Of a DNA stretch of 64,000 bases, positions 8,440-31,978 are shown piece after piece. The notes beneath the pieces are model-generated. The model worked only from the letters and a program-made list of their open reading frames with translations, was not told the origin of the DNA and did no database searches. Each line of letters begins with the position of its first letter. Position 1 is the first letter of the stretch. The stretch comes from Alphaproteobacteria bacterium (GTDB lineage: Bacteria; Pseudomonadota; Alphaproteobacteria; Rhodobacterales; Rhodobacteraceae), in assembly GCA_030425925.1 (NCBI GenBank), contig JAUHZO010000013.1, positions 1-64,000 on the forward strand, given 5' to 3'. A program made the translations under genes and the position numbers.

Positions 8440-12034
<3,595 letters not shown>

Positions 12035-14611: not shown

Positions 14612-14640
14612 TTGTCGCAAGACTTTCATGCCGCTGTCAT
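14612..14640 (+). promoter_or_regulatory. Pho box (PhoB site) for the phnF-M operon
   Basis: CTTTCAT-gccg-CTGTCAT at 14623-14640 matches the PhoB consensus CTKTCAT-N4-CTKTCAT exactly, and a weaker half-site TTGTCGC sits one 11-bp step upstream at 14612. The phnF start is 57 bp downstream. This implies induction by phosphate starvation. Confidence 0.85.
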
Positions 14641-14696: not shown

Positions 14697-15425
14697 ATGA
14701 CCAGGGCAAGCAATTGGGAACGCGCGCGGGACTGGATCCGCGCCGACATCACGCGCCGCGCGTTGCGCGAGGGCGACCAGCTGCCGCCGGAACAGGACAT
14801 CCAGCGCGCCTGTGGCGTCGGGCGGCACTCGGTCCGTCGCGCCATGGCCGCTCTTGCCGCCGAAGGTCTGCTCAGTGTCGAGCAGGGGCGCGGCACCTTT
14901 GTGCGGGCGCAACCGACGCTGCTCTACCGCATCGGCCGGCGGACCCGGTTTCGCGAAAACCTTCTGGCCAATGGCATGAAACCCGGCAGCGATGCCATCG
15001 GGGCCGAGATCGTCCCCGCCGATGCCGGTGTCGCCGACGCGCTGGCCCTGGTGCCAGGCGCCCCGGTGCACCGCGTCTTGCGCCGCGGTCTGGCCGATGC
15101 CGTCCCGATCAGCCTGACCCGCAGTTTTCACTGCGCCACCCGTTTTCCCGATCTTGGCGAGCGGCGCAGCGCGGGTGCGTCGGTCACCGAGATCTACCGC
15201 GATCACGGTATCGCCGACTATCTGCGCCGGGAAACCACGCTGTATGCCCGCCTGCCCGAAAAATGGGAAGCGCGGCTGCTGGAACAGCATGTCGATCAGC
15301 CGGTGATGGTGATGTGCAAGACAGACATCACCCCGGATGGCGCACCCATCGGTTGGTCCGAAGCCATCTGGGCAGCGGGCCGGGTGCGGTTTTCGCTGTC
15401 TGCCGAAGGGGCAAGCCATGACTGA
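14697..15425 (+). CDS. phnF: PhnF, GntR/HutC-family regulator of phosphonate utilisation
   Basis: 242 residues. N-terminal winged helix (about 5-70) with the GntR pattern RADITRRALREGDQLPPEQD and HSVRRAMAALAAEGLLSVEQGRGTFV, then a UTRA ligand-binding domain. First gene behind the Pho box and overlapping phnG by 8 bp. In other bacteria PhnF represses phn genes or an alternative phosphate uptake system; its ligand here is unknown. Confidence 0.9.
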   Translation: MTRASNWERARDWIRADITRRALREGDQLPPEQDIQRACGVGRHSVRRAMAALAAEGLLSVEQGRGTFVRAQPTLLYRIGRRTRFRENLLANGMKPGSDAIGAEIVPADAGVADALALVPGAPVHRVLRRGLADAVPISLTRSFHCATRFPDLGERRSAGASVTEIYRDHGIADYLRRETTLYARLPEKWEARLLEQHVDQPVMVMCKTDITPDGAPIGWSEAIWAAGRVRFSLSAEGASHD

Positions 15426-15849
15426 CGGGATGAGCCACGAAGATGTTCTGGGCACGCTGGCCCGGATGGAGGCCGCGCGGATCAAGCCGCTGGCCGAGGC
15501 GGTTTTGCCGCAACTGGGCGCGGTCGAGGTGATCCACAGCCGCACCGGCCTTGTCATGTGCCCGATGCGCGACACCGTGCAGGGCACCGATTTCCACCTG
15601 GGCGAGGTGCTGGTGGCCGAGGCGCACGTGACGCTGAAAGATCACGGCGTCGAAGGCTATGGCATGGTCACGGGCCGCGATCTGGAACAGGCGATGGCGA
15701 TGGCGCTGATTGACGGCGCGCTGGCCGCGAGCATCAACGTGGACACGCTGACCGCGGCGATTCGCACGGAGCAGGCCCGGCAGGCCGAGGAAGACCGCGA
15801 AACGCTGCGCCGCATCGAAGCGACCCGCGTCGACATGGAGACGTTCTGA
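15418..15849 (+). CDS. phnG: PhnG, C-P lyase core complex subunit
   Basis: 143 residues from ATG 15418. PhnG features are HSRTGLVMCPMRDTVQG and FHLGEVLVAEAHVTL, the most conserved part of the family. Together with PhnH, I and J it forms the C-P lyase core; PhnG with PhnI and PhnH/L makes the ribose-phosphonate triphosphate intermediate. It joins phnH by TGATG. Confidence 0.92.
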   Translation: MTDGMSHEDVLGTLARMEAARIKPLAEAVLPQLGAVEVIHSRTGLVMCPMRDTVQGTDFHLGEVLVAEAHVTLKDHGVEGYGMVTGRDLEQAMAMALIDGALAASINVDTLTAAIRTEQARQAEEDRETLRRIEATRVDMETF

Positions 15850-16391
15850 TGCAGGCTGCCCCCACGCCCGACGCGCTGGAGACGCGCGACAACCTGACGT
15901 TCGAAGCGGTGCTTTGGGCGCTGTCCCGCCCCGGCGAGCCACGCGCCCTGCCCGACGCCGGGGCAGGCGCGATCCTTTCGGCGCTGGTGGATCGCGAATG
16001 CCGCGCCTACGCCGACGATCCCGAAATCGAGACCCTGCTGCGCCAGAGCGGCGCAAGCCTTGTTCCGCTGGAACTGGCCGACCATGTCTTTGCCGGACTG
16101 ACGACGGACAGTGACCTCGCGCGCTTCATGCGGGTGCCGGTAGGCGACATGCTTTATCCCGACCAGGGGGCCACGGTGATTGCGCCGGCGCAGATCGGGT
16201 CAGGCACGGCCTTGCGCCTGACCGGCCCCGGGATCGAGACGGCCCGTGATATCCGGCTGGGCGGGCTTCACCCGCGCCTGTGGGAGGTTCGGGCCACGCT
16301 CTGCCGCTATCCGCTGGGCGTCGAGATGCTGTTTGTCGACGGCGCGCAGATCCTGGCGTTGCCGCGTTCGACACAGGTGGAGGGGATCTGA
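15849..16391 (+). CDS. phnH: PhnH, C-P lyase core complex subunit
   Basis: 180 residues, usual size. The N-terminal pattern TFEAVLWALSRPGEPRALP (compare FRxxMxAMSRPG in the family) and the C-terminal RYPLGVEMLFVDG...LPRST are PhnH hallmarks. It belongs to the PLP-transferase-like fold without a PLP lysine and stabilises the core complex. Stop and phnI start overlap as TGATG. Confidence 0.92.
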   Translation: MQAAPTPDALETRDNLTFEAVLWALSRPGEPRALPDAGAGAILSALVDRECRAYADDPEIETLLRQSGASLVPLELADHVFAGLTTDSDLARFMRVPVGDMLYPDQGATVIAPAQIGSGTALRLTGPGIETARDIRLGGLHPRLWEVRATLCRYPLGVEMLFVDGAQILALPRSTQVEGI

Positions 16392-17455
16392 TGGCCTATG
16401 TGGCAACCCGCGGCGGCGAACGCGCAATCGACCAGGCCGAACGGCTTTACCGGTCCCTGATGGGTGATATCGACGCGCAGCGCGTGGCCGAGATCGAGGC
16501 GGCGCTGCCGCTGCTGATCGACCGTCTGATGGGTGAATCCTCGCTCTATGCACCGGAACTGGCGGCGCTTGCGCTGGCGCAATCCGGCGGCGACCTCTAC
16601 GAGGCCATCCTCCTGATGCGGGCCTGGCGCACGACGCAGCCGCGCCTGCAGGTGGCCGAACCGGTTCAGCAGGGCCAGACCTTCACCCATCGCCGCATCT
16701 CGGCCGCGTTCAAGGACATTCCCGGCGGCCAGATCCTTGGGCCGACGCTGGATTATTCGCACCGGCTGCTTGAAACCGGTGTGCTGGGCGGTGCGCCCTA
16801 CCGCCCCGATCCGGTAGAGCCTGCGGCCCGGCCCGCCCCGGCCCGGCATCCCTCGCTGGCGGAGTGGCAAAAGGCGCAGGGCCTTGTACACGACGTGCAG
16901 ACAGAACCGGTGGACAAGGACAAGATTCCCGATCTCACGCGCGAGCCGCTGCTGTTCCCCGCCAAGCGCGCGCACAGCCTGCAAAGCCTCGCGCGGGCCG
17001 ACACCGGCGGCGTGCTGGCGCTGGGCTATTCGGCGATGCGGGGCTATGGCAACGCACACCCCACCGTGAACGAGCTGCGCCTGTCCGAAGCCGATCTGCG
17101 CGTGCGCCATCCGCGCGGCACCGTCTTCAGCGCGGGGCGCGTGCGCACCAGCCAGGCCGAGGTGGTGACCACCAAGGGCAAGGGCGCGCTGCAGGTGGGT
17201 TTCTGTGCCACTTTCGGCTGGAACGAGATGAAGTGCATCGCCGGTGCCACGCTGGATCTGAACGCCCCCGGCGCGGCAAAAAACAGCCCGGTGAACGAGG
17301 AGTTCTTCCTCTACCACACCGAACCGGTAGAGGCCTCGGGCTTTTGCATCCACTTCAAGCTGCCGCATTACGTGACGTTCCAGTCCGCGCTGGACAACCT
17401 GCGCGCCGCCAAGGCCAAGGCCGAAGCGCCCGCGAAAGAGGAGGCCGACGCATGA
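16391..17455 (+). CDS. phnI: PhnI, nucleosidase-type subunit of C-P lyase complex
   Basis: 354 residues from ATG 16391. It opens with MAYVATRGGERAIDQAERL and contains HRRISAAFKDIPGGQILGPT and DYSHRLLE, the strongly conserved PhnI motifs. With PhnG, H and L it displaces adenine from ATP by the phosphonate. The C-terminal histidine-containing metal site region (FFLYHTEPVEASGFCIHFKLPHY) looks intact. It overlaps phnJ by 4 bp. Confidence 0.94.
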   Translation: MAYVATRGGERAIDQAERLYRSLMGDIDAQRVAEIEAALPLLIDRLMGESSLYAPELAALALAQSGGDLYEAILLMRAWRTTQPRLQVAEPVQQGQTFTHRRISAAFKDIPGGQILGPTLDYSHRLLETGVLGGAPYRPDPVEPAARPAPARHPSLAEWQKAQGLVHDVQTEPVDKDKIPDLTREPLLFPAKRAHSLQSLARADTGGVLALGYSAMRGYGNAHPTVNELRLSEADLRVRHPRGTVFSAGRVRTSQAEVVTTKGKGALQVGFCATFGWNEMKCIAGATLDLNAPGAAKNSPVNEEFFLYHTEPVEASGFCIHFKLPHYVTFQSALDNLRAAKAKAEAPAKEEADA

Positions 17456-18366
17456 GCCTGACCGGTCTCACCCGTCCGTGGAAGGACTTCTCTTACGGGT
17501 TCCTCGACGCCTCGGCCAAGCGCGAGTTGCGCCGCAAGATGCTCAAGGCCGTCGCCGTGCCCGGCTGCCAGATGCCCTATGCCAGCCGCGAAGTGCCCAT
17601 CGCGCGGGGCTGGGGAACAGGCGGGCTGCAGGTGACCTGCACGTTGCTGAACCCCGGCCATACCGTGAAGGTGATCGACCAGGGGGCGGATGACAGCGTC
17701 AACGCCGCCTCGATCCGCCGGTTTCTGACGCGGGTGTCCGGGGCGCGGTCGACCTGGGACACGCTGGAGGCCTCGCTGATCCAGTCGCGCCACCGGGTGC
17801 CCGAAGAGATCCTGCGCGAGGATCAGATCCTGATCCTGCAGGTGCCGAACCCCGAACCGCTGCGCCCGGTCGAACCCAACATGTCCGTAGCCCGCCAGAT
17901 GCACGCCGATGCCGATTACGGGCGGATGTGGCTGCAGTTGTACGAACAGATCGTGCGCTCGGGCCGGGTGATGTTCGGCGCGGCCTATCCGTCGCTCGTG
18001 CATGGGCGCTACGTGATGACCCCCTCGCCCATCCCGCGCTGGGACGTGCCCAAGCTGAACATGGCGCGCCACCTGACGATCTTGTCGGCCGGGCGCGAAA
18101 AGCGGCTGTACGCCGTGCCGCCCTATACCAGGGTCGAACCGCTGGTCTTTGACGACGTGCCCTACAAGGTCGAGGAGCACGGGCATCTGACCTGCTACCG
18201 CTCTGGCCTGAAGGGCTTTTTCATGAACGAGATCCCGCAGGAGGATGGCGGCGCGCTGCACGAGGTGTCCGACAGTCATCTCGGGATCAAGGCGATCCGG
18301 CAGGGCGATGGCGAGGACGTGGCGACTGGCGACACGTGGTATACAAACGGGGAGATGGGCCAATGA
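17452..18366 (+). CDS. phnJ: PhnJ homologue (C-P lyase radical-SAM subunit) lacking most Fe-S cysteines
   Basis: 304 residues, full PhnJ length and clearly orthologous through most of its length: VPGCQMPYASREVP with the glycyl-radical glycine (Gly38, E. coli Gly32), GWGTGGLQVT, VIDQGADDSVNAASIR, PSPIPRWDVPK and AGREKRLYAVPPYTRVE. PhnJ cleaves the C-P bond using a [4Fe-4S] cluster held by CX2CX21C plus a thiyl-radical Cys (E. coli 241, 244, 266 and 272). Here the aligned residues are Cys248, Ser251, Val272 and Gly278, so only the first survives. The frame is open and the surrounding residues align (GFFMNEIPQED, VSDSHLG for CSDTDYC), so a sequencing frameshift is unlikely. Catalysis by the known mechanism should fail. 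It overlaps phnI and phnK by 4 bp. Confidence 0.9.
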   Translation: MSLTGLTRPWKDFSYGFLDASAKRELRRKMLKAVAVPGCQMPYASREVPIARGWGTGGLQVTCTLLNPGHTVKVIDQGADDSVNAASIRRFLTRVSGARSTWDTLEASLIQSRHRVPEEILREDQILILQVPNPEPLRPVEPNMSVARQMHADADYGRMWLQLYEQIVRSGRVMFGAAYPSLVHGRYVMTPSPIPRWDVPKLNMARHLTILSAGREKRLYAVPPYTRVEPLVFDDVPYKVEEHGHLTCYRSGLKGFFMNEIPQEDGGALHEVSDSHLGIKAIRQGDGEDVATGDTWYTNGEMGQ

Positions 18367-19160
18367 CCCTCGCGCTGGACGCCCCCCGCCTGGTGCAGAC
18401 GCAGCCGTTGATGGTTCTGTCGGGCGTGTCGAAACGCTATGGCCCCGTCGTGGCGCTCGATGACGTCTCGGCCGAGGTTTACCCAGGCGAAGTGCTTGGG
18501 ATCGTGGGGGAAAGCGGCTCGGGCAAGTCGACCTTCCTGCGCATGATGAACCTCGAAGAACTGCCCGATGCCGGGACCTACACGCTCGATCTGCCGGACA
18601 CGCCGGGCAATCTGTTCGAACTGGATCGCTTTGCCCGCCGGATGTTGTGTGCAACCCGTATCGGCATTGTCTACCAGAACCCGCACCAGGGCCTGCTGAT
18701 GCGGAACTCCTCCTCCGGAAATGTCGCCGAACGGCTGCTGATCGCGGGCGAGCGTCGCTTTGCGGTGCTGCGCGAAAAGGCCGGGGATGCCTTGGCCGCG
18801 TCCGAGTTTCCGCTCGACCGCATGGACGCGCCGCCGATCGAGCTGTCGGGCGGGATGCAGCAGCGGGTGCAGCTGGCCAAGGCGATCGCGTTGGAACCGG
18901 CGGTGCTGTTGCTGGACGAACCGACCACGGGCCTCGATGTCAGCGTGCAGGCCCTCGTGCTGGACACGCTCAAACGCCTGCAGCGCGACCGCCGGATCAC
19001 CATGGTGATCGTCAGCCACGACCTGGGCGTGATCCGCACCATGGCCGACCGGGTGATGGTCATGCGGCGCGGGCAGGTGGTGGAACAGGGTCTGTCCGAC
19101 CAGATCTTCCAGGACCCGCAGCACGCCTACACCCAGCAACTCGTCCACGCGAAACTCTGA
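18363..19160 (+). CDS. phnK: PhnK, ABC-type ATPase of the C-P lyase complex
   Basis: 265 residues. Walker A GESGSGKST, signature LSGGMQQRVQLAKAI, Walker B AVLLLDEPTTGLD, H-loop IVSHD. It has the PhnK-specific YQNPHQGLLM...GNVAERLL segment (E. coli HQHPLDGLR...GNIGERLM). PhnK docks on the PhnGHIJ core through PhnJ rather than acting in transport. Start codon overlaps the phnJ stop (ATGA). Confidence 0.93.
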   Translation: MTLALDAPRLVQTQPLMVLSGVSKRYGPVVALDDVSAEVYPGEVLGIVGESGSGKSTFLRMMNLEELPDAGTYTLDLPDTPGNLFELDRFARRMLCATRIGIVYQNPHQGLLMRNSSSGNVAERLLIAGERRFAVLREKAGDALAASEFPLDRMDAPPIELSGGMQQRVQLAKAIALEPAVLLLDEPTTGLDVSVQALVLDTLKRLQRDRRITMVIVSHDLGVIRTMADRVMVMRRGQVVEQGLSDQIFQDPQHAYTQQLVHAKL

Positions 19161-19197
19161 GAACGGAGGACCAACGGCACAGCCTGGCGCAACAGGT

Positions 19198-19236
19198 CCC
19201 CTCCCCCCCGGGGGAGAGGGTTAGGGTGAGGGGGAC
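19198..19236. repeat. REP-like GC palindrome between phnK and phnL
   Basis: A run CCCCTCCCCCCCGGGGGAG followed by AGGGTTAGGGTGAGGGGGACG matches a short palindromic element seen intergenically in many proteobacteria. It fills much of the only sizeable gap (103 bp) inside the otherwise overlapping phnF-M operon. Confidence 0.6.
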
Positions 19237-19263
19237 GTCCCCGCCCGTGCCGTCCGTAGCATC

Positions 19264-19968
19264 ATGACCCCCATCCTCACCGTCGACACCCTGACCAAGA
19301 CCTTCCGCATGCACCATCTGGACCAGACGCTGCATGCCTTTGAGGGCCTGTCCTTCACCCTGGCCCCGGGCGAGTTCCTGCTGCTCTCTGGTCCCAACGG
19401 CGTGGGCAAGTCCACGCTTCTGCGCACGCTTTACCGCAGCTACCGCGCGCAGGCGGGCCACATCTGGTACGAGGCGCCCGAAGGCCGGATCGACCTTGCC
19501 AGCGCCGCCGATATCGACATCGCGCTTCTGCGCCGGCGCGAGATCGGCTTTGTCACCCAGTTCCTCACCGCCCGCCCCCGCGTCGCCGCCGAAGAGATCG
19601 TGGCCGAACCGCTCCGCCTTGCCGGCACCGCGCACCAGGAGGCGCTGACCGAGGCGCGGCGCTGGCTCGCCGCCTTCGGCGTCAAGGAAGATCTCTGGCG
19701 TGCCTATCCCACGACCTTTTCCGGGGGCGAGCAGCAGAAGGTGAACCTTGCCCGCGCGCTCATCCTGCCGCAGCGCCTGCTTCTGCTTGACGAACCCACC
19801 GCCTCGCTCGACAAGAACGCGCGCGCGGCACTGGTCGCGCGGCTGGCCGAACTGAAGGCGTCTGGCGTCGCCATGATCGGCGTCTTCCATCATCCGGGCG
19901 ACGTTGCCCATCTGATCGACCGCGAGATCCCGCTCGCGCCAAAGGAGGTGGCCCATGTGGCTGAGTGA
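19264..19968 (+). CDS. phnL: PhnL, ABC-type ATPase of the C-P lyase pathway
   Basis: 234 residues. Walker A SGPNGVGKSTLL, signature FSGGEQQKVNLARAL, Walker B LLLLDEPTASLD. PhnL features are KTFRMHHLDQT near the start and RRREIGFVTQFLTARPRVAAEEIVAEPL. It supports the first step (phosphonate attack on ATP) with PhnG, H and I. It overlaps phnM by 14 bp. Confidence 0.93.
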   Translation: MTPILTVDTLTKTFRMHHLDQTLHAFEGLSFTLAPGEFLLLSGPNGVGKSTLLRTLYRSYRAQAGHIWYEAPEGRIDLASAADIDIALLRRREIGFVTQFLTARPRVAAEEIVAEPLRLAGTAHQEALTEARRWLAAFGVKEDLWRAYPTTFSGGEQQKVNLARALILPQRLLLLDEPTASLDKNARAALVARLAELKASGVAMIGVFHHPGDVAHLIDREIPLAPKEVAHVAE

Positions 19969-21124
19969 TTTCCGCGTCGTGCTGGCCGATCGCGTGCTGG
20001 AGCATGGATCCATCCGGATCGAAGGTGAAACCATTGCCGAGGTGGTCGAAACCCCGGTGCAAGGCGCCGATCTGGAGGGTCATGGCCTGCTTCTGATGCC
20101 CGGCTTCATCGACATGCATGGCGACATGATCGAACGCGAGGTCGAACCGCGCCCCAACGTGCGCATGCCCATGGAACTGGGCCTGCGCGATCTGGACCGG
20201 CGGCTGAAGACGGCAGGTGTGACTACCGGCTACGCCGCCGTCAGCTTCAACCCCAAAAGCGCCTATGGCCATCTGCGCAGCTACGAGCATTCCAAGGAGA
20301 TGCTGCGCGCGCTGAAGGAAATGCGCGGCATTCTCAAGGTCGACCACCGGGTGCATGCCCGGTTCGAGATCAACTATCCCGGCGCGCTGGAGGTGGTCGA
20401 AGAGCTGATCGCCGACGGCACCGTCGATCTGGTCTCGCTGACCGATCACACGCCGGGGCAGGGGCAGTACCGCGATCTCGAACGGCTGACCGACCGCACG
20501 CAGCAGGAACGCGGCATCACCCGCGAAGAGGCCGAGGCCGCCGTGCAGGCCCGGATCAACGAAAAGCGCGCGCAGGCAGGCGATGTGAAGGCGACGCTGG
20601 AGGCGATCTCGCGCACCTGTGCCGCCCATGGCATCGCGCTGGCCAGCCATGACGACGACACCGTGGAAAAGGTGGCCCTGATGAAGGAACTGGGGGCGAC
20701 GCTCAGCGAATTCCCGGTGACCGAAGAGGCCGCGCGCGCTGCACGCGACGCGGGCATGCCCACCGCCATGGGCGCGCCGAACGCGCTGCGTGGCAAAAGC
20801 TATTCGGGCAATCTGTCGGCGCGGGAGGCGCATGAAAAGGGACTGCTCGACATCCTGGCGGCGGATTATCACCCGTCGGCCATCCTGCCAGCGGTGCTGA
20901 TCCTGGCCGCGACGGATCCCGAAGGGCTGGCCGGGGCCACGCGGCTGGCCACGTCGAACCCCGCGCGCGTGCTGGGGCTGACCGACCGGGGCGAGATCGC
21001 ACCGGGCAAGCGGGCCGATCTGGTCATCGCCGACACCGACGGCGTGGGCCATGTCCGCGCCACGCTGCGCAACGGGCACAAGATATTCTCGGACGGATCG
21101 GTTCTGCTGCGCATGGCTGCCTGA
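19955..21124 (+). CDS. phnM: PhnM, ribose 1-phosphonate 5-triphosphate diphosphatase
   Basis: 389 residues, amidohydrolase superfamily. It releases pyrophosphate from the triphosphate intermediate to give the PhnJ substrate. Metal-binding motifs match E. coli PhnM: PGFIDMHGDMIE, SLTDHTPGQGQY, LASHDDDT, MGAPNALRGKSYSGN and DILAADYHP. It is the last gene of the plus-strand operon and converges on the methyltransferase at 21128. phnN, a DUF1045-type phosphoesterase gene and phnO are absent from the operon. Confidence 0.93.
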   Translation: MWLSDFRVVLADRVLEHGSIRIEGETIAEVVETPVQGADLEGHGLLLMPGFIDMHGDMIEREVEPRPNVRMPMELGLRDLDRRLKTAGVTTGYAAVSFNPKSAYGHLRSYEHSKEMLRALKEMRGILKVDHRVHARFEINYPGALEVVEELIADGTVDLVSLTDHTPGQGQYRDLERLTDRTQQERGITREEAEAAVQARINEKRAQAGDVKATLEAISRTCAAHGIALASHDDDTVEKVALMKELGATLSEFPVTEEAARAARDAGMPTAMGAPNALRGKSYSGNLSAREAHEKGLLDILAADYHPSAILPAVLILAATDPEGLAGATRLATSNPARVLGLTDRGEIAPGKRADLVIADTDGVGHVRATLRNGHKIFSDGSVLLRMAA

Positions 21125-21127
21125 CGC

Positions 21128-21904
21128 CTACGGCCGGCGCTGCACCCATTTCACGGTGGTTTCCCATTCCAGCGTCACCGGGTTGCCACCCATCCGTGCG
21201 CAGATGCCGGACAGATCGTCCAGCACCCGGCGCAGCCCCACACGGCGCACGATGGCCCAGACCGTCGAGCGCGTCAGATAAAGGTCGATCAGCGCGCGGC
21301 AATCGCGCTGGTCCTGCCAGCCATAGGTGCGCGACTTGGCGGACATGAACGCCGGAAGCGCCGCCAGATCACGCACCGACGGTTCCTTGCTGCGCTCGCG
21401 CGCGCGGTAATTGGCGATCTCGAACGAGTTCTCGGCAATGTAGGCGTCGAACGCCTCGATCACCGGCCCGGGCTTGCGGCGGTTGCGCATCAGCGCCAGC
21501 ACGCCGTGCGGCGCCAGCACCCGGGCGGCCTCGTCAAAGAACTGGTCGCGGTCGAACCAGTGAAAGGCGGTGCAGGCGATCAGCATGCCGGCGCTGGCAT
21601 CGGGCAGCGGGATCGATTCGGCACAGGCGTCGATCACCTGCACCCCGGCGTTCTGGGCAAACTCGCGCGTCAGGACGCGGCGCATGTCCTTGCCGGGTTC
21701 GCTGGCAATCACCAGCCAGTCCGGGGACAGCGCCTCGCGCAGACCGCGGGTGGAATTGCCGGTGCCCGCCCCGATGTCCACCGCGATCCGCTTGTCGCTG
21801 TGACAGGCGGCGACCAGATCGGCATAGGCCTCCGCCGGATAGCCGGGGCGATGCACGGCATAGGTTTCGGCCAACCCCTCGAAGCGATCGGCGTTCTCGC
21901 GCAT
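21128..21904 (-). CDS. Class I SAM-dependent methyltransferase (last gene of phnD2 operon)
   Basis: 258 residues from ATG 21904, one base after the phnM2 stop. Rossmann SAM motif AVDIGAGTGNST, acidic EPGKDM, motif CAESIPLPDASAGMLIACTAFHWFD and a VLAPHGVLALM strand place it in the Methyltransf_11/UbiE-like group; the FHWFD motif is typical of small-molecule or putative polyketide/quinone methyltransferases. The substrate is unknown. Its position as the sixth cistron of a phosphonate-type operon suggests it modifies the imported compound or a metabolite of it, but that is inference. Confidence 0.85.
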   Translation of the reverse strand: MRENADRFEGLAETYAVHRPGYPAEAYADLVAACHSDKRIAVDIGAGTGNSTRGLREALSPDWLVIASEPGKDMRRVLTREFAQNAGVQVIDACAESIPLPDASAGMLIACTAFHWFDRDQFFDEAARVLAPHGVLALMRNRRKPGPVIEAFDAYIAENSFEIANYRARERSKEPSVRDLAALPAFMSAKSRTYGWQDQRDCRALIDLYLTRSTVWAIVRRVGLRRVLDDLSGICARMGGNPVTLEWETTVKWVQRRP

Positions 21905-21905
21905 C

Positions 21906-23123
21906 TCAGATCCCGAAACTCCGCGCAGCATGGGCCACGCGGCCATGGCACAGTGTCAGCACCGGCGCGGGAGGCTGCCCTTCGGGCCAGTCCAGCAGCA
22001 CCAGGTCTGCGCGCTGTCCCGGGGCGATGCGGCCGCGATCGGCAAGGCCCGAGGCCTCGGCCGGGTTCTGCGCCACAAGCTTCCACAGCGCGGGCAGGGG
22101 CGCGATCCGGTCGGACAGAAGGCGGGCGACGGCAGAGAGCATGGCGGGATAATAGTAGTCCGAGGCGAGGATATCGCAAAGCCCCCGGGCCACCATGTCC
22201 GCCGCGCCGGGAGAGCCGATATGGCTGCCGCCGCGGACCGCGTTGGGCGCGCCGTAGACGATCCAGTCACCGGCGGTGCGCGCCGCTTCTGCCACCGGCA
22301 CGTTCATCGGAAACTCGCTGATCCGTGCGCCCAGATTCCGGTAGAAATCCCGTGTCTCGGTCTGCGTATCGTCATGGCTCAGCATCGGCGCGGCGGCGGC
22401 GCGGCCCTGTTCGGCCACAGTCTCGATGGCAGCGCGCACCTTGCCGCGTTGTGCCCAGCGGTCGCGCAGCAGGCCGGCGAATTCGGCCGGTGTGACGCCC
22501 GACCGCTTGGCGCGGCCCTCCATCGCCTTTTCAAAGCGCGGCCCTTCGAAATCGCAGACCGGGTAGGTCTCCACCAGGTCGAAGGGACGATCCTGAAGCC
22601 GGATATCGGGATGCAGCATCGCCATGGTGGTATGGTCGTTGAACGCGATGGAGGGTGTCAGCGCTGCGCCCAGCGCCTTTTCGATCAGCGGTGCCGCCTC
22701 GAAGCAGAACGTCTCCCAACGCAGCTGCACGCGGTTTTCCACCGCCAGCCGTGGCTCCAGCGCGGCGATGGTCTCGATCAGGTCCTCGCCCCGCGCGACC
22801 GAGCGCAGCCCGGGTTCCCAGCTGATGGTCAGCGCGTGATAGGCGGTGGCGATACCGTTTCCGGCAAGTTGACGGTCTGTTTCCAGTGCGGCGACATCCA
22901 GCGGAAAGAACACGCCCGGGCGCGGCATCATCTGCCGTTCGAACGCGTCGCCATGGATGTCCACCAGTGCGGGAGCCAGCATCAGCCCGCGCGCATCAAC
23001 CGTTTGCGCGCCGTCGCGCGGCCCGTCCAGCGCGGTGATGCGCCCGTCCTCGACCCGCACCGCCACCGGTGCGATGCGATCCTCCAGGACGACATCGGCA
23101 CCTTCGATGACAAAGGCGGTCAT
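21906..23123 (-). CDS. Second PhnM-like amidohydrolase (divergent paralogue)
   Basis: 405 residues from ATG 23121-23123, which overlaps the previous stop as ATGA; the upstream extension lacks family similarity. Amidohydrolase fold with metal motifs VDIHGDAFER, LSHDDTQT, YGAPNAVRGGSH and DILASDYYYP shared with PhnM. The loop that reads DHSPGQ in PhnM is replaced by NDHTTMAMLHPD, so substrate contacts probably differ from the authentic PhnM at 19955. It acts in the cytosol. It could hydrolyse another phosphonate ester or triphosphate, or be a redundant PhnM. Confidence 0.85.
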   Translation of the reverse strand: MTAFVIEGADVVLEDRIAPVAVRVEDGRITALDGPRDGAQTVDARGLMLAPALVDIHGDAFERQMMPRPGVFFPLDVAALETDRQLAGNGIATAYHALTISWEPGLRSVARGEDLIETIAALEPRLAVENRVQLRWETFCFEAAPLIEKALGAALTPSIAFNDHTTMAMLHPDIRLQDRPFDLVETYPVCDFEGPRFEKAMEGRAKRSGVTPAEFAGLLRDRWAQRGKVRAAIETVAEQGRAAAAPMLSHDDTQTETRDFYRNLGARISEFPMNVPVAEAARTAGDWIVYGAPNAVRGGSHIGSPGAADMVARGLCDILASDYYYPAMLSAVARLLSDRIAPLPALWKLVAQNPAEASGLADRGRIAPGQRADLVLLDWPEGQPPAPVLTLCHGRVAHAARSFGI

Positions 23124-23773
23124 GCCCGGCGCTCCATCAGCAGGTGCCAATGCCACGATCCGGGGGTTTCGTGTTCGCGATCCTCCAGCGTCCACGGCTC
23201 GAATCCGTCGAACAGGGCCAGCAGGTCGGCGGCATCGCAGAAGTAGTGCGGGTGCCGCTTGTCGCCATCGGCCTCGAACACCCAGGTGTTGCGCGAAATC
23301 TCGCGCCCTTCGTATTTCGCGCATTCCACCGGCACCCGGCGGGCCGACAGCATCGTGCCCATAAAGGTGCCGCCGGGCACCAGCACGCGCGAGATTTCGG
23401 CGATGGCGCGCCGGACGATCTCTTCGTCGCCGTGATAGATCACGTTCCAGCTGAGCACATGGTCGAACGCGCCGTCGGCAAAGGGCAGGTCGGTCATCGG
23501 CGCCTGCACCGTCTCGATCGCAAGATCACCGGCCGCTTCGCGCAGCGCGGCGATGCCATCGGGCGCGGCGTCCAGCCCGGTGACGTCATGGCCCATCGCG
23601 GCCAGCGCCACGGCGTGCCGTCCGACACCGCAGCCCAGGTCCAGCACCCGCGCGCCCGGCGCCATTGTCCGGCCCCAGGCGATCACGTCGGCTTCGGCTT
23701 GCGCCCATTTGCTGTCGGGCGTGATTCCGGCCCATTCTGCGTTCCAGTGTTCGTGTGCGGTGTCTGTCTTCAT
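23120..23773 (-). CDS. Class I SAM-dependent methyltransferase (fourth gene of phnD2 operon)
   Basis: 217 residues. Motif I VLDLGCGVGRHAVALA, the acidic loop GLDAAP, then PFADGAFDHVLSWNVIYH and VLVPGGTFMGTM. It resembles TehB/thiopurine-type small-molecule methyltransferases. The sequence ends with WHWHLLMERRA, suggesting a compact single domain. Start overlaps the permease stop (ATGA) and stop overlaps phnM2 (ATGA). Substrate unknown; not related in detail to the other methyltransferase of this operon. Confidence 0.85.
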   Translation of the reverse strand: MKTDTAHEHWNAEWAGITPDSKWAQAEADVIAWGRTMAPGARVLDLGCGVGRHAVALAAMGHDVTGLDAAPDGIAALREAAGDLAIETVQAPMTDLPFADGAFDHVLSWNVIYHGDEEIVRRAIAEISRVLVPGGTFMGTMLSARRVPVECAKYEGREISRNTWVFEADGDKRHPHYFCDAADLLALFDGFEPWTLEDREHETPGSWHWHLLMERRA

Positions 23774-24636
23774 CTGTCCGTTCCGATGATGCGGCTGCGC
23801 AGCAGCGCGCCGAGTTGTTCCACGGCGATCACCACGACGGCAATCATCAGGATCACCGTGAGCGCCGTGGGATAGTCGAAGAGGTCAAAGCCAACCTTCA
23901 GTTCGATCCCGATCCCGCCGGCCCCCACAAGCCCCAGGATGGTGGAGGAGCGCACGGCCTTTTCCAGCCCGAAGAGCGAGGTCGAGATAAAGCCCGGCAT
24001 GGCCGCGGGGATCACCGCGCAGGCAGCGATGTCGATACGCCGGGCCCCGGTGGCGGTCAGCGCCTCCGATGGCCCCTGGTCGACGGCCTCCATGTCGTCG
24101 GCGAAGAAACGGGCGCAAAAGCCCAGCGTGTCCATCAGGATCGCAAGCATCCCCGCAAACGGTCCAAGACCCACGGCCACGACAAAGACCAGCGCCCAGG
24201 CGAGGTCGGGCACCGCACGGATAAAGCCCAGCACCATCCGCGTCACCATCGTCACCCAGTGCGGCACCAGCAAACCGCGGGTGGCCAGCAGGGCGACGGG
24301 CACCGACAGCACCACGCCCAGCGCCGCGCCGGCAATGGCGATCTGCAGGGTTTCCACCATCTTCCAGCCCAGCCGCGCCAGCGAATCGGTGGCGGGCGGC
24401 CAGGCACGCGACAGGAAATCCGCCATGCGGGGGCCGGATCGGGCGATCTTTTCGGCAGACCAGCCCGCCCCGTCCAGCGCCCAGACCAGGATCACCGCGC
24501 CCAGCGCATAGCCCAGAAAGGCCAGCGCCGAGGGGCGTTCGAAACGGGCCGGTGTGGTGCCTGCGGTCATGTCGTGGTCTCCTCTGGCCGGTCCGGACGT
24601 GTCATCGGGCGGGGCCAGCCTGCGCGCGCGGGTCAT
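23770..24636 (-). CDS. phnE: PhnE-type ABC permease (phosphonate-family transporter 2)
   Basis: 288 residues, about six membrane helices. Permease loop EALTATGARRIDIAACAVIPAAMPGFI and the conserved GLVGAGGIGIELK end are PhnE-family features. It is a single permease, unlike the pair phnE1-phnE2 at 28452-30379. ATG 24636 overlaps the phnC2 stop; an internal ATG at 24570 is possible. It works with the ATPase and binding protein encoded upstream. Confidence 0.9.
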   Translation of the reverse strand: MTRARRLAPPDDTSGPARGDHDMTAGTTPARFERPSALAFLGYALGAVILVWALDGAGWSAEKIARSGPRMADFLSRAWPPATDSLARLGWKMVETLQIAIAGAALGVVLSVPVALLATRGLLVPHWVTMVTRMVLGFIRAVPDLAWALVFVVAVGLGPFAGMLAILMDTLGFCARFFADDMEAVDQGPSEALTATGARRIDIAACAVIPAAMPGFISTSLFGLEKAVRSSTILGLVGAGGIGIELKVGFDLFDYPTALTVILMIAVVVIAVEQLGALLRSRIIGTDR

Positions 24637-26290: not shown

Positions 26291-26602
26291 GGCAGCAACT
26301 CCCATCGGGTTTGGCGGAAAGGTCCGGATGACTGGTAGCGCGCCGACATGACCGCCGAATTGCGGTAAGATGACGGTTTCGTCGTGCTTTGATGTCAAAG
26401 CGATGACAGCCCCGGCACTGACCCCGGAAAGGCTGTTGCCGCGCGGTACCGACAAAAACGCAGGCAGGTGAGGCCGCGGGTTCCAACCCGTTGAAAGCAA
26501 AGAACCGGGATCCGCGAATGTCACGAAAGCGATTCAATCCGGCAACGCAATCTTCAAGCATCCGTCGAACGCCTGTCATGGATCGCAGGCAGTGCGGCGG
26601 CC
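26291..26602. other. Divergent regulatory gap between phnD2 and phnC1
   Basis: 312 bp without a supported gene. The left half holds the Pho half-site array of the minus-strand operon. A lone CTGTCAT at 26573-26579, with a poor partner CCGTCGA 11 bp upstream, could serve phnC1 but lies only 23 bp before its start. No other structure was seen. Confidence 0.5.
26348..26409 (-). promoter_or_regulatory. Array of 11-bp-phased Pho half-sites upstream of phnD2
   Basis: On the minus strand CTGTCAT (26403-26409), TTGACAT (26392-26398), CCGTCAT (26370-26376) and CGGTCAT (26348-26354) all fall on one 11-bp register; the registers at 26381 and 26359 are degenerate. The best pair, CTGTCAT-cgct-TTGACAT, is a near-consensus Pho box. 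The array ends 57 bp before the phnD2 start. Confidence 0.7.
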
Positions 26603-27409
26603 ATGGAACATGCATCGCTGCGTCTTGAGAATCTCACCCGCGTCTTTGGCCAGACAACGGCCGTGGACCGCGTTTCGCTGGATATTGCACCGGGACAGTT
26701 CGTCGGCGTGATCGGCCGTTCGGGCGCGGGCAAGTCCACCCTGCTGCGCCTGATCAACCGGCTGATCGACCCGACGGACGGCAAGGTCACGTTCGGCGAC
26801 ACGGATGTCACCACGCTGAAAGGGCGCGCGCTGCGCGAATGGCGCCGCGATTGCGCGATGATCTTTCAGCAATTCAACCTGGTCGAACGGCTCGACGTGC
26901 TGACCAACGTGCTGGTGGGCCGTCTGGCCGGTCGCGGGTTCCTGTCCTCGATGGCGATGCAGTTCTCGGATGAAGAACGCACGATGGCCATTCAGGCGCT
27001 GGACCGGCTTGACCTTGTACCGCAGGCGCTGCAGCGCGCCGGCACCCTGTCTGGCGGCCAGCAGCAGCGCGTGGCGATTGCGCGTGCGCTGGTGCAAAAC
27101 CCGCGGATCATGCTGGCGGACGAACCGATCGCCTCGCTCGACCCGGGCAACGCCACCCGCGTGATGGAAGCGCTGCGCACCATCAACAAAGAAGACGGGC
27201 TGACCGTTCTGGTCAACCTGCACACGCTCGATACCGCCCGCGAGTATTGCGACCGCATCGTAGCGATGCGCGCGGGCAGGGTGATGTTTGACGGCACCGC
27301 AGTACAACTGACCGATGACGTGGTGCGCGACATCTACGGCTCGGAAGGGCTTGAAGAATTCAACGAAGCGGTGACGTCGACCGCCGCGCGCGTGCGCGAA
27401 ACCGCCTGA
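26603..27409 (+). CDS. phnC: PhnC, phosphonate ABC transporter ATPase
   Basis: 268 residues. Walker [19 protein letters not shown], signature [15 protein letters not shown], Walker [35 protein letters not shown] is the standard PhnC segment. First gene of phnC-phnD-phnE1-phnE2, divergent from the second importer operon. Powers uptake of phosphonates across the inner membrane. Confidence 0.94.
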
Positions 27410-27444: not shown

Positions 27445-28356
27445 ATGAAAATGCTGCTCACCACCGCGCTTGTCGCACTGACCGCCACGTCGGCCCTGGC
27501 CGACTGGCGCGCCGATTACCCCGTCATCCGTATGGGCGTTCTGTCGGGCGAAAACGAAGCCGACCGTCTGGCCCGCTACGAGCCGTTCCGCCAGTACCTG
27601 ACCGAGAAGCTGGGCGTCGAAGTCGAGATCTTCACCGCCGGTTCGTATGACGGTGTGGTGCAGGCGATGGCCGGCGACCAGATCGAATTCGCGCGCTTCG
27701 GCTCCTCCTCCTACGCCGCGGCCTACACCGCGACCGACGGCAAGGTCGTTCCGCTGCTGACCTCGATCACCAAGTCGGGCAACACCGGCTACATCTCGAC
27801 CATCAACGTGCGCTGCGACAGCGGCCTGGAAAGCATCGACGATCTCGAAGGTCTGGTTCTGGCCTTCGCCGACCCCGACTCCACCTCGGGCTACGCCGTG
27901 CCTTACTACAACCTGGTTGCTCAGGGCTACGAGCCGACCGAGTTCTTTGAAAACGTTCCGTTCTCGGGTTCGCACGAAGCCGGCATCCTGGGTGTGATCG
28001 AAGGCACCTACGACGCTGCCGCCACCTGGGCCGACACGCCGGAAATCGGCAACTGGACCCGCATGGAAGACAAGGGCATGATCGAGAAGGGTGCGATCTG
28101 CACCATCTGGTCCTCGCCGGAAATCACCAACGGCCCGATCACCACCCGCAACAACCTGCCCCAGGAACTGGTTGACGCGTTTGTTGAAGCTCAGATCGCC
28201 TTCCCGGAAGAAGAGCCCGAGATGTATCGCGAACTGACCGGCATCACCGGCGACGAAGCCGACCCGGATGTGGGCTATGTCCGCGTCGACCACGACCGCT
28301 ACCAGTGGATCGTCGACATGCGCGCCTGGCTGCGTGAACAGCGCCGCGGCAGCTAA
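27445..28356 (+). CDS. phnD: PhnD, phosphonate periplasmic binding protein
   Basis: 303 residues, signal peptide MKMLLTTALVALTATSALA. Mature protein begins with DWRADYPVIRMGVLSGEN. Binding-site elements of the PhnD family: GSYDGVVQAMAG, FARFGSSSYAAAY, DPDSTSGYAVPYY (phosphonate-binding S-T-S), GSHEAG and TWADTPE. AAGGGGGA lies upstream of the ATG. Codon use is unusually strongly biased (many GGC, CTG, ACC), fitting high expression. Confidence 0.94.
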   Translation: MKMLLTTALVALTATSALADWRADYPVIRMGVLSGENEADRLARYEPFRQYLTEKLGVEVEIFTAGSYDGVVQAMAGDQIEFARFGSSSYAAAYTATDGKVVPLLTSITKSGNTGYISTINVRCDSGLESIDDLEGLVLAFADPDSTSGYAVPYYNLVAQGYEPTEFFENVPFSGSHEAGILGVIEGTYDAAATWADTPEIGNWTRMEDKGMIEKGAICTIWSSPEITNGPITTRNNLPQELVDAFVEAQIAFPEEEPEMYRELTGITGDEADPDVGYVRVDHDRYQWIVDMRAWLREQRRGS

Positions 28357-28370
28357 GCCCCGCTGACCTC

Positions 28371-28405
28371 GGGAGCGGCCCCTGCGGGCCGCTCCCTTTC
28401 CTTTT
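28371..28405 (+). terminator. Attenuating hairpin between phnD and phnE1
   Basis: GGGAGCGGCCC-ctgc-GGGCCGCTCCC (11-bp perfect stem, 28371-28396) followed by TTTCCTTTT. It sits in the 95-bp gap after the binding-protein gene, where partial termination or 3'-end protection commonly keeps the binding protein in excess over the permeases. Confidence 0.75.
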
Positions 28406-28451
28406 GCGCGCGCCTTGTGCCGCGCGCCCGTCCGACGACCGGAGCAGACCC

Positions 28452-29411
28452 ATGGCCAGCATCACCGAAGCCGGGCCCTCATCGCCCCTCCTCGCACAGG
28501 CCGAATCCTCCATCGACGCCTTCGAACGCGAATTCGCGCAGGCCCGCCGCCGGTCGCGCCGCGTCTGGCTGATCGGGACGGTGGTCTTTCTTGCCCTGTT
28601 CTTCCTGACAACCTGGTTCTCGGGCTTTTTCGACGTGCGCATGGTCACGCTCGAAGACGGCAGCCGCGCGCCGCGCTGGGTGATCCCGGCGGGGTTCAGC
28701 CTGCTGGACGATTTTGTCGTCAAGATGCTGCCTACGCTGGATTTCTCGTCCTGGCCCGGCTTCTGGGCCTCGATGGACGACTGGTTCTGGGGCCTGGAGA
28801 AATGGCTGGGCCTGCTGCTTGAATCGATCCTGATCGCCTACATGGCGACGATCTTCGGCATCTTCTTCGGCTTCTGCCTCAGCTTTCCGGCCTCGCGCAA
28901 TCTTGCGCCGAACAACTTCGTCTATCACGTCACCCGCCGGTTCCTTGAAATCTCGCGCACCGTGCCGGAACTGGTCTGGGCGCTGATCTTCATCTTCATG
29001 TTCGGCCCCGGCCCGATGGCGGGCGTTCTGGCGGTGGGGCTGCACGCGCAGGGCGCGCTGGGCAAGCTCTACTCGGAGGCCAACGAAAACATTTCCATGC
29101 GCCCGCTCGAAGGCGTCAAGGCTGCCGGTGGCAGCTGGTTCGACCAGGTGCGCTATGGCGCAGTGCCGCAGGTGATCCCGAACATCATCAGCTATTCGCT
29201 GCTGCGCTTCGAGATCAACGTGCGCGCCTCGTCGATCATCGGCTTTGTCGGCGCGGGCGGCATCGGCAAGGAATTCTACACCGCGCTCCAGCTGCAGGAA
29301 TACACCGACCTGTCGGCGATCTTCATCATCTTCCTGGTAACCATCGGGATCATCGACTGGGGATCGGAAAAGCTGCGCCACCGCATCATCGGCCTGGAGG
29401 GGCGGACATGA
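28452..29411 (+). CDS. phnE: PhnE1, phosphonate ABC transporter permease
   Basis: 319 residues from ATG 28452. A long cytoplasmic N-terminus, one helix, then the PhnE core: FGFCLSFPASRNLAPNN, RTVPELVWALIFIFMFGPGPMAGVLA, the EAA-type loop PLEGVKAAGGSWFDQVRYGAVPQVIP and FVGAGGIGKEFY. The large periplasmic insertion after the first helix (about 60-120) is usual for this paralogue. It overlaps phnE2 by 4 bp. Confidence 0.93.
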   Translation: MASITEAGPSSPLLAQAESSIDAFEREFAQARRRSRRVWLIGTVVFLALFFLTTWFSGFFDVRMVTLEDGSRAPRWVIPAGFSLLDDFVVKMLPTLDFSSWPGFWASMDDWFWGLEKWLGLLLESILIAYMATIFGIFFGFCLSFPASRNLAPNNFVYHVTRRFLEISRTVPELVWALIFIFMFGPGPMAGVLAVGLHAQGALGKLYSEANENISMRPLEGVKAAGGSWFDQVRYGAVPQVIPNIISYSLLRFEINVRASSIIGFVGAGGIGKEFYTALQLQEYTDLSAIFIIFLVTIGIIDWGSEKLRHRIIGLEGRT

Positions 29412-30379
29412 CCACGCAAATCACCGATGCCGACATCGCCGCCGCCAAGGAACGCGTGCCCTACGCCTTCCGTGCCCCGCGCGAGGTGATCCTGCGCCGC
29501 AGGATCGTCTACGGCTTCATGATCGCGCTTTTCATCTGGTGCATCTTCGATTTCGAATTCATCCGTGTCGTGCTGTTCGACTATGACCGCCGGACCGACA
29601 CCTGGTCGTTCGAGCCCTGGCAGACCTTCTACGAATACAACCGCCGCACCAAGGAATGGTCTTTCAACCCCTGGCTGCCGGTCGAGCGGCTGTATGCGGG
29701 GATCTACAAGGCGCAGGCCTTCTTCGAATGGCCGCGGATCGACTTTTCCTGGGAAGAATGGGGCATGATCGCCAAGGGCCTGGGCGAGACGCTGTCGATG
29801 GCCTTCCTGGGCACCGTTCTGGGGGCCGCGCTGGCCTTTCCGCTGGGCTGGATGGGGGCCAAGAACATCCTCCCGCTCAGCTTCATCCGTGTGCCCACGC
29901 GGCGCGGCTTCGACTTCATCCGCGCGTTCGAGACGCTGATCCTGGCCATGATCTTCATCCGCGCCTTTGGCCTCGGGCCGCTGGCGGGGATTCTGGCGAT
30001 CACGGTGTCCGAGATCGGAACCTTTGCGAAACTCTTTGCCGAGGCGATCGAGAACACCTCGGAAAAGCCGGTGGACGGGGTCAAGGCCTCGGGTGGCAGC
30101 GCGTTGCAGCGCATCCGCTACGCGGTGATGCCGCAGGTCAACCCGGTGATCCTGTCGATCATCCTCTACAATTTCGAATCCAACACCCGGTCGGGCACGA
30201 TCCTGGGCATCGTCGGCGCGGGCGGCATCGGCTTCATGCTGTCGGACCGGATCCGCGCCTATCGCTGGGACGAGGTGTGGACGATCATCATCCTGATCAT
30301 CGCCATGGTCTACATCATCGACTGGCTGTCGGGCCGTGTCCGTCAACGCATCATCGGCAGCTGGGACGGCGCCCGGTGA
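29408..30379 (+). CDS. phnE: PhnE2, phosphonate ABC transporter permease
   Basis: 323 residues, paralogous to PhnE1 with which it should form a heterodimeric channel. Core motifs are LGWMGAKNILP, RAFETLILAMIFIRAFGLGPLAGILA, the loop PVDGVKASGGSALQRIRYAVMPQVNP and IVGAGGIGFML. A charged periplasmic insertion (about 52-90) repeats the phrase TWSFEPWQTF / EWSFNPWLPV. Last gene of the operon, followed by a strong hairpin. Confidence 0.93.
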   Translation: MTTQITDADIAAAKERVPYAFRAPREVILRRRIVYGFMIALFIWCIFDFEFIRVVLFDYDRRTDTWSFEPWQTFYEYNRRTKEWSFNPWLPVERLYAGIYKAQAFFEWPRIDFSWEEWGMIAKGLGETLSMAFLGTVLGAALAFPLGWMGAKNILPLSFIRVPTRRGFDFIRAFETLILAMIFIRAFGLGPLAGILAITVSEIGTFAKLFAEAIENTSEKPVDGVKASGGSALQRIRYAVMPQVNPVILSIILYNFESNTRSGTILGIVGAGGIGFMLSDRIRAYRWDEVWTIIILIIAMVYIIDWLSGRVRQRIIGSWDGAR

Positions 30380-31320: not shown

Positions 31321-31369
31321 GAACGCGGGCTTACAGGGTTCAAATGACAGGAACGCAAAGGACATCGGA

Positions 31370-31978
31370 ATGAAGCAGCTGACCGAAGCGCCCAATGTGC
31401 ACGAAACCGCCACGGTGATCGCGTGCGAGCTGGGACGCTGGACCGAAATCCATGCCAACGTCACCATGCGCGAGGTGGCGTTCGGGGATTATTCCTACAT
31501 CGTGCGCGATGGCGGCGTGGTCTGGTCGACCATCGGCAAGTTTGCCTCGATCGCGCAGGGGGCCCGGATCAACCCGGGCAACCACGCCACCTGGCGCGCG
31601 GCGCAGCATCATTTCACCTATCGCGCGCGCATGTTCGACCTTGGGGAAGATGACGCGGCGTTCTTTCAATGGCGGCGCGATCACTGGGTGACCATTGGTC
31701 ATGACGTCTGGATCGGCCACGGCGTGACGATCCTGCCGGGCGTTCGCATCGGAGACGGCGCGGTGGTCGGGGCCGGTGCGGTGGTCACCCGCGATGTTGC
31801 GCCCTACACGATTGTCGGCGGCGTGCCTGCGCGCGAGCTGAAACGGCGCTTCAGCCCCGCCCAGGGCGAGGCGTTGCAGCAGATCGCCTGGTGGGACTGG
31901 AGCCACGAAACCCTGCGCGACCGCCTGCACGACATCCGCGGATTGGACATCGACGCCTTCATCGAGAAATACCGCTGA
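31370..31978 (+). CDS. Hexapeptide-repeat acetyltransferase, phosphonate-associated type
   Basis: 202 residues from ATG 31370. Left-handed beta-helix of [LIV]GxxxX hexapeptides, most clearly [30 protein letters not shown], and the xenobiotic acetyltransferase-like ending [16 protein letters not shown]. The segments [32 protein letters not shown] and [17 protein letters not shown] match the DapH/DapD/GlmU-related family named for its regular occurrence in phn gene clusters. Probable CoA-dependent acyl transfer; the biochemical role is undetermined. Confidence 0.85.

Follow-up and report, generated by a model that had tools for sequence, protein, structure and literature searches.

PhnJ2, a putative PhnJ subfamily of Alphaproteobacteria and Thermus that lacks radical-SAM cluster cysteines and may release a ribosyl cyclic phosphate without radicals

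In the carbon-phosphorus (C-P) lyase PhnJ, a radical S-adenosylmethionine (radical-SAM) enzyme (EC 4.7.1.1), the phosphorus is attacked by a thiyl radical and loses its alkyl group, and a cyclic phosphate is then closed by the 2'-OH of the ribose. According to a report on the Escherichia coli complex (PMC9947105), cysteines 241, 244, 266 and 272 serve the PhnJ cluster, and a ligand modelled as phosphoribosyl cyclic phosphate (PRcP) lies between Arg107, His108, Gln124 and the loop 47-50 of PhnJ and a zinc ion held by His328 and His333 of PhnI. Here we describe a cysteine-poor PhnJ paralog, for which we introduce the name PhnJ2, encoded in a 64,000-nucleotide stretch of a Rhodobacteraceae genome (Alphaproteobacteria bacterium, assembly GCA_030425925.1, contig JAUHZO010000013.1, positions 1 to 64,000; hereafter the window). 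Judging from sequence comparison, PhnJ2 is an old, conserved PhnJ subfamily without the radical-SAM cluster cysteines, in which the residues of the ribosyl-substrate pocket are kept. The explanation that we tentatively prefer, at somewhat less than even confidence, is that the phnJ2 complex makes PRcP without radical chemistry, probably through attack of the 2'-OH on a more labile P-X bond.

The phnJ2 product (304 amino acids (aa), translated from positions 17452-18366) matches the Pfam profile of PhnJ (PF06007) over profile positions 2-268 of 275 with a score of 383 bits (cut-off 25; E-value 7e-115). In the HMMER alignment with E. coli PhnJ (query residues 13-268), Gly38 corresponds, with an offset of 6, to Gly32, the site of the glycyl radical, and Cys248 and Ser251 correspond to Cys241 and Cys244; this pairwise alignment ends before the last two cysteines, the columns of which are occupied by Val272 and Gly278 in an alignment of 85 distinct PhnJ2 sequences (mostly from Rhodobacterales) and 38 canonical PhnJ, made after identical cores had been removed. 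The window protein, then, has only the first of the cluster and thiyl cysteines. These observations bear out an earlier note on this DNA, which had described a full-length PhnJ with exactly these five residues and had attributed the loss to substitution: the reading frame is open and its stop codon overlaps the phnK start, the loss is common to the orthologs, and the structural model described below matches E. coli PhnJ over residues 11-284, all of which speaks against a frameshift. Nor were the cysteines relocated, given that 57 of the 85 PhnJ2 contain only two cysteines in their first 300 residues. Given the role published for the four cysteines, the known C-P cleavage would not be open to PhnJ2. 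NCBIfam gave no match for PhnJ2, nor a PhnJ match for the canonical protein encoded in the source genome, so that the empty search says nothing about PhnJ2.

The substitutions extend across the subfamily (genome counts throughout are uncorrected for kinship). Column 248 is Cys in 85/85 PhnJ2; column 251 (Ser in 82, Thr in 3) and column 272 (Val in 54, Leu in 17, Ile in 13, Ala in 1) never contain Cys, and column 278 is Gly in 81, Ala in 3 and Cys in a single protein from Bradyrhizobium. All four cysteines are present in each of 66 canonical PhnJ, namely the 38 aligned ones and 28 from other alphaproteobacterial families; all 66 come from the best-scoring loci and are not a random sample. In nine further PhnJ2 that we read (from Haematobacter OT1, Nitratireductor, Sinorhizobium, Mesorhizobium, Rhizobium, Microvirga, two Thermus and genome G783), positions 251, 272 and 278 are likewise occupied by residues other than Cys, and five of these proteins have a single cysteine in their entire length. 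The phnJ2 gene is under purifying selection, with a ratio of nonsynonymous to synonymous substitution rates (dN/dS) of 0.013 to 0.143 in those of 53 overlapping close pairs where dS is finite. For the C-terminal part, dN/dS is above that of the whole gene in most pairs (maximum 0.60, in one pair with two synonymous changes), suggesting that selection on the domain now lacking the cluster is somewhat relaxed but persists. Taken alone, the loss of catalytic cysteines in one gene could signify operon decay, as the earlier note had considered, or a sequencing error, but the comparative data refute this explanation and leave it a negligible probability: the loss is common to 85 distinct orthologs and to distant plasmid-borne members, dN/dS is far below 1, and the neighboring phn genes of the window have uninterrupted reading frames and score against the expected families.

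The same alignment bears on the possibility that PhnJ2 is still a radical C-P lyase, with a cluster held by other ligands or by another protein or with an external activase that generates the radical on Gly38. Such an enzyme would account for the retention of Gly38 and Cys248 in 85/85 PhnJ2 and of the adjoining C-P lyase genes, but we consider it improbable given that the thiyl cysteine is missing in 84 of the 85 and that ligation of a [4Fe-4S] cluster through cysteines of PhnJ2 alone is impossible in the five members with one cysteine per protein. Furthermore, no obvious activase was noticed among the unmatched open reading frames (ORFs) of at least 180 aa in loci L143 and L144, which were read by eye, with no radical-SAM model run. 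Cys39, adjacent to Gly38 and present in 85/85 of the aligned PhnJ2, was considered as a substitute thiyl residue and rejected as a feature of the family: this residue is Tyr in the PhnJ2 of Sinorhizobium B11, Mesorhizobium AR07, Rhizobium 11515TR, Microvirga, G783 and both Thermus.

Arg113, His114, Gln130 and the loop G53-T56 of PhnJ2, the counterparts of the E. coli PRcP contacts given in the structural report (PMC9947105), are invariant in all 85 sequences. The zinc-histidine motif of PhnI is present in the 85 PhnI linked to PhnJ2 and in all 12 further loci that were read, including the haloarchaeal ones with a four-cysteine PhnJ. At least 95% of the operons of both types retain the PhnK and PhnL ATPase motifs and the His/Asp-rich, presumably metal-binding motifs of PhnM; in Nitratireductor sp. 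OM-1 (locus L199, about 9900-10700) phnK is apparently split into two ORFs and no gene is annotated there. A structural model of PhnJ2 (76 sequences, with canonical PhnJ included in the input alignment; predicted local distance difference test (pLDDT) 76, predicted template modeling score (pTM) 0.80) matches E. coli PhnJ (4xb6_D) with a Z-score of 28.8 and a root-mean-square deviation of 2.6 over 265 aligned residues (model residues 11-284), and the C-terminal domain is predicted to be present. An initial model built from 39 close relatives had low confidence (pLDDT 51) and was discarded, and fold matches other than PhnJ and PhnH chains, with Z-scores of at most 4.4, were disregarded. PhnH itself also matches the model (2fsu, Z-score 12.5, residues 21-231), but, according to the structural report (PMC9947105), lacks the C-terminal domain that is retained in PhnJ2. 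Compared with the E. coli radical-SAM PhnJ (Protein Data Bank entries 4xb6 and 7z15-7z19), PhnJ2 is thus alike in fold, operon type, PRcP pocket residues, glycyl-radical glycine and the PhnI zinc site, and unlike in the missing second, third and fourth cluster or thiyl cysteines, at 44-48% identity.

The conservation of the pocket is relevant for another alternative, under which PhnJ2 is only structural and the complex stops at a ribosyl phosphonate used for detoxification, modification or regulation. In the E. coli complex, PhnJ additionally provides the docking site of PhnK (PMC9947105), and a scaffold role would agree with the faster evolution of the C-terminal part; such a role appears unlikely, though, given that the PRcP-contacting residues are invariant and that phnN is found near phnJ2 where PhnJ2 is the sole PhnJ (see below).

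The spread of PhnJ2 was examined in three genome samples. In the family sample (290 genomes searched with PhnJ2), 15 genomes including the source genome scored 536-703 bits, with the next best at 301; in the class sample (385 evenly chosen genomes), 65 genomes had a match at 1e-50, of which two were at the PhnJ2 level (632 and 648 bits) and the next at 326; in the phylum sample (398 genomes), five of the 84 matching genomes had Pfam scores at the PhnJ2 level (379-397 bits), the next lowest full-length score being 451. A search of genome contigs yielded 80 loci at 75-85% identity, some of them from the same genomes, and a plasmid search detected PhnJ2 on rhizobial plasmids (70-79% identity) and in Thermus thermophilus (62-63%) among the best 40 of 215 records. 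The 1.4 Mb plasmid of Microvirga sp. VF16 (NZ_CP069355.1) carries an unusual accumulation of phn operons, with nine PhnJ matches, some at PhnJ2-level scores, and eight PhnN above the cut-off; one PhnJ of this plasmid (locus L202) was read. In the phylogenetic tree, the Thermus and alphaproteobacterial PhnJ2 fall on one side of a branch with support 99/98, although the bootstrap is not fully settled, and haloarchaeal PhnJ are the next neighbor of this clade at a weak node (90/21) where long branches meet. A single ancestral loss of the cysteines would be the simplest reading of these sequences. The PhnJ of Haloarcula and Haloferax plasmids (50-55% identity with PhnJ2 within the matched region) and of genome G130 (locus L048; 51%) resemble PhnJ2 but, unlike it, contain all four cysteines.

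The earlier note had proposed a search for a second phnJ, and one was found: the source genome has a canonical phnJ with all four cysteines (G000:C13:45179-45991) in a separate operon, adjoining phnN and a DUF1045 gene, and its product is 48% identical to PhnJ2. Canonical PhnJ was detected in 47 of 50 PhnJ2 genomes checked (50 of the 80 loci). In the family sample, canonical phnJ is found in 14 of the 15 PhnJ2 genomes vs about half of the others (Fisher p about 3e-4, with related genomes counted as independent). The two genes are 15-21 kb apart in 6 of the 47 genomes with both types. This association, together with the invariant Gly38, is what would be expected if the phnJ2 complex acted with canonical PhnJ in trans, either because PhnGHI, PhnL and PhnM load particular substrates onto ribose and the ribosyl phosphonate is handed over or because canonical PhnJ puts the radical on Gly38. 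We regard such cooperation as rather unlikely, albeit the strongest of the alternatives. It is countered by four genomes of two lineages (three Haematobacter and G073) in which no other PhnJ was found and which keep the phnJ2 cluster with phnN nearby, so that help from canonical PhnJ does not seem obligatory, and by the own phnGHIKLM set of phnJ2 (in the exact order in 71 of 80 loci), which shows that phnJ2 is not a bare helper. For the suggestion in the earlier note that another PhnJ works in trans, the premise, a further PhnJ in the genome, holds in nearly all genomes checked.

That PRcP arises through the phnJ2 complex itself is argued chiefly from phnN. PhnN acts after the formation and opening of ribose-1,2-cyclic phosphate (PMC10574752), and phnN lies near phnJ2 where PhnJ2 is the sole PhnJ found. 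PhnN and DUF1045 were looked for in 47 genomes, of which 4 carry PhnJ2 alone, 14 both types, 16 canonical PhnJ alone and 13 no PhnJ. In all 14 two-type genomes phnN is 2.0-3.6 kb from canonical phnJ and never within 16 kb of phnJ2, whereas in all four PhnJ2-only genomes it is 3.6-8.7 kb from phnJ2; across the set of 80 loci, phnN neighbors phnJ2 in 3/3 PhnJ2-only vs 1/47 two-type genomes. No PhnN even near its cut-off was detected in 12 of the 13 PhnJ-less genomes, the exception being G007 (G007:C6, locus L147, 9.5-10.8 kb), where a phnN-DUF1045 pair occurs with no detectable PhnJ in the genome; this pair is possibly a remnant or has a role apart from C-P lyase. A DUF1045 gene, which presumably corresponds to the 2H-phosphodiesterase called 'rcsF' in PMC10574752, is near phnJ2 in three of the four PhnJ2-only genomes. 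In Mesorhizobium AR07, DUF1045 and phnN are annotated downstream of phnM in the phnJ2 operon; Microvirga and G783 have the same order by similarity, and both also carry canonical-scoring PhnJ copies. In Thermus HB8 (locus L193, 15037-15840), a YmdB-type metallophosphoesterase identified with Pfam is encoded near the phn cluster, and a TIGR00282 phosphoesterase is annotated near the SNM1-1 phn cluster; a cyclic phosphodiesterase at this place could act on PRcP. On the Haloarcula and Haloferax plasmids (loci L195 and L197), the clusters with four-cysteine PhnJ are followed by a sugar-phosphate isomerase/epimerase gene, and in one case also by a HAD hydrolase gene, and no phnN is annotated in the stretches read; perhaps these clusters process the ribose product by another route.

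For the production of PRcP without radicals by the phnJ2 complex, the following scheme can be proposed. PhnI, PhnG, PhnH and PhnL would couple the phosphorus compound to C1 of the ATP-derived ribose, and trimming of the triphosphate would fall to PhnM, both as in E. coli. Once the radical part of the known reaction is removed, the step of 2'-OH attack remains, provided that the substituent can leave unaided; thus, in PhnJ2 and at the PhnI zinc site, the ribose 2'-OH would attack the phosphorus non-radically and expel the substituent, giving the 1,2-cyclic phosphate PRcP. The bond concerned would have to be P-O, P-N, P-S, or C-P with a stabilized carbanion rather than that of an unactivated alkylphosphonate, so that a phosphate ester, a phosphoramidate, a phosphorothioate or a stabilized-carbanion phosphonate would be fitting substrates. 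A cyclic phosphodiesterase and then PhnN would carry the product to phosphoribosyl pyrophosphate (PRPP), and most genomes would draw on the operon of the canonical C-P lyase for both enzymes. Sharing of PhnN would explain the near-constant co-occurrence of the two PhnJ types, as would a direct need for canonical PhnJ. Among the three readings of the earlier note (decay, a PhnJ in trans, different chemistry), different chemistry fits best, as a prediction. In its most specific form, which we put forward with more reserve than the general proposal, PhnJ2 would define a non-radical branch of the C-P lyase scaffold in Alphaproteobacteria and Thermus, in which PhnGHIJKLM ribosylates a phosphorus compound and PhnJ2 frees PRcP by zinc-assisted, oxygen-tolerant transesterification through the 2'-OH, acting on P-O, P-N, P-S or activated C-P bonds; the genes of this branch would at present be tallied as methane-forming C-P lyases.

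Several observations weigh against non-radical PRcP formation by PhnJ2. Canonical PhnJ in 47/50 PhnJ2 genomes fits a role in trans equally well, and the exceptions come from two lineages, one of which, the genus Haematobacter, is mixed, because plasmid pOT1-5 of Haematobacter massiliensis OT1 bears a canonical-scoring PhnJ in addition to phnJ2, and it is the canonical-scoring gene that has phnN at a distance of 4 kb. The phnN near phnJ2 may have been left behind by a canonical operon since lost, and PhnN above the cut-off is absent from 5 of 8 phnJ2 plasmid records, both Thermus included (searched in the same record only and not on other replicons). DUF1045 is unspecific: TIGR03223 matches 42 of the 47 genomes, including 8 of the 13 without PhnJ (3 above the cut-off), and the Haematobacter matches lie under the cut-off; its value as a marker of the PRcP step is weakened accordingly, and the argument for PRcP rests on phnN. 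Finally, the glycyl-radical site is retained in 85/85 PhnJ2, the transporter encoded in the window resembles phosphonate transporters, and it would seem wasteful to invest ATP in opening a bond that is labile to begin with.

The existence of PhnJ2 matters for surveys that rely on phnJ as a marker gene of C-P lyase and of methane production from methylphosphonate (PMC9381506, PMC6852614, PMC11978286). In the family, the cysteine-less type is found in 15 genomes (of 290) vs any PhnJ in 147 of 295, that is, in about one in ten phnJ-bearing genomes, and all six annotated plasmid records of the cysteine-less type that we opened label the protein C-P lyase PhnJ, so that such surveys may miscount C-P lyases or methane sources. 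If PRcP is indeed made without radicals, the PhnGHIKLM machinery would be useful apart from radical C-P cleavage, and the PhnI-PhnJ zinc site could be studied in air. In the open-access literature searched, which does not prove novelty in print, we found no published report of a PhnJ without the cysteines or of a second PhnJ type, nor of phosphonate genes in Thermus.

In the window, phnF-G-H-I-J-K-L-M form a compact operon (14697-21124), followed at some distance by a transporter cassette (Table 1). The order phnGHIJKLM was read exactly in 71 of 80 phnJ2 loci, some of the other nine being truncated where the contig ends. A phnD-type gene lies close to phnJ2 in 71/80 loci (the protein cluster of the window phnD in 68/81), and a hexapeptide acyltransferase-like gene in 57/80.

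Table 1. Features of the phnJ2 locus (window coordinates)
Feature	Coordinates	Strand	Basis or remark
Pho-box-like site upstream of phnF, candidate	14624..14639	+	one mismatch to the searched pattern
phnF, GntR/UTRA regulator	14697..15425	+	TIGR02325, 163.9 bits, above cut-off
phnG	15418..15849	+	TIGR03293, 99.4 bits on 15364-15849, above cut-off; ATG start overlapping the phnF stop, chosen here
phnH	15849..16391	+	TIGR03292, 108.8 bits, above cut-off; E. coli PhnH by sequence
phnI, both zinc histidines kept (H.KLPHYV motif)	16391..17455	+	PF05861, 353 bits; alignment to E. coli PhnI
phnJ2, PhnJ paralog without 3 of 4 radical-SAM cysteines	17452..18366	+	translation, Pfam, alignments
phnJ2 codon Cys248	18193-18195		
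phnJ2 codon Ser251	18202-18204		
phnJ2 codon Val272	18265-18267		
phnJ2 codon Gly278	18283-18285		
phnK, non-transport ABC ATPase	18363..19160	+	best NCBIfam TIGR02323, under cut-off; PhnK structures among matches; Walker motifs conserved
phnL, ABC ATPase	19264..19968	+	best NCBIfam TIGR02324, under cut-off
phnM, triphosphate pyrophosphohydrolase	19955..21124	+	NF011988, 514 bits, above cut-off
phnC of transporter cassette often linked to phnJ2	26603..27409	+	
phnD, substrate-binding protein	27445..28356	+	best solved matches are phosphonate-transporter binding proteins
phnE, permease	28404..29411	+	longest ORF; real start possibly later
second phnE, permease	29408..30379	+	
hexapeptide-repeat acyltransferase-like gene, linked to phn clusters	31373..31978	+	PF00132

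Minority neighbors of phnJ2 include methyltransferases (MT1 in 11/80 loci, MT2 in 16/80) and an extra PhnM (Mb, in 30/80), so that the neighbors do not point to a substrate. Control by PhoB, which the earlier note had assumed, is represented by candidate sites: a second Pho-box-like match, also with one mismatch, is at 26393-26408, but the pattern is only weakly enriched in the window (14 matches vs 7.95 expected; equally high counts in 3 of 100 shuffles).

On the opposite strand, at 21128-26311, a second cassette encodes a methyltransferase, a PhnM paralog, a second methyltransferase, phnE, phnC and a PhnD-like binding protein. A similar cassette (D, C, E, methyltransferase and PhnM paralog) is found in genome G079 (locus L149) downstream of a canonical operon, so that the second cassette is not tied to phnJ2. 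An APH-family phosphotransferase gene (30436-31467, minus strand) is located between the second phnE and the acyltransferase-like gene. The PhnG and PhnI models cross-match, namely the PhnI model with the window PhnG (15364-15849; 6.6e-06) and the PhnG model with canonical PhnI (5.7e-07), which suggests that the two proteins have a common domain.

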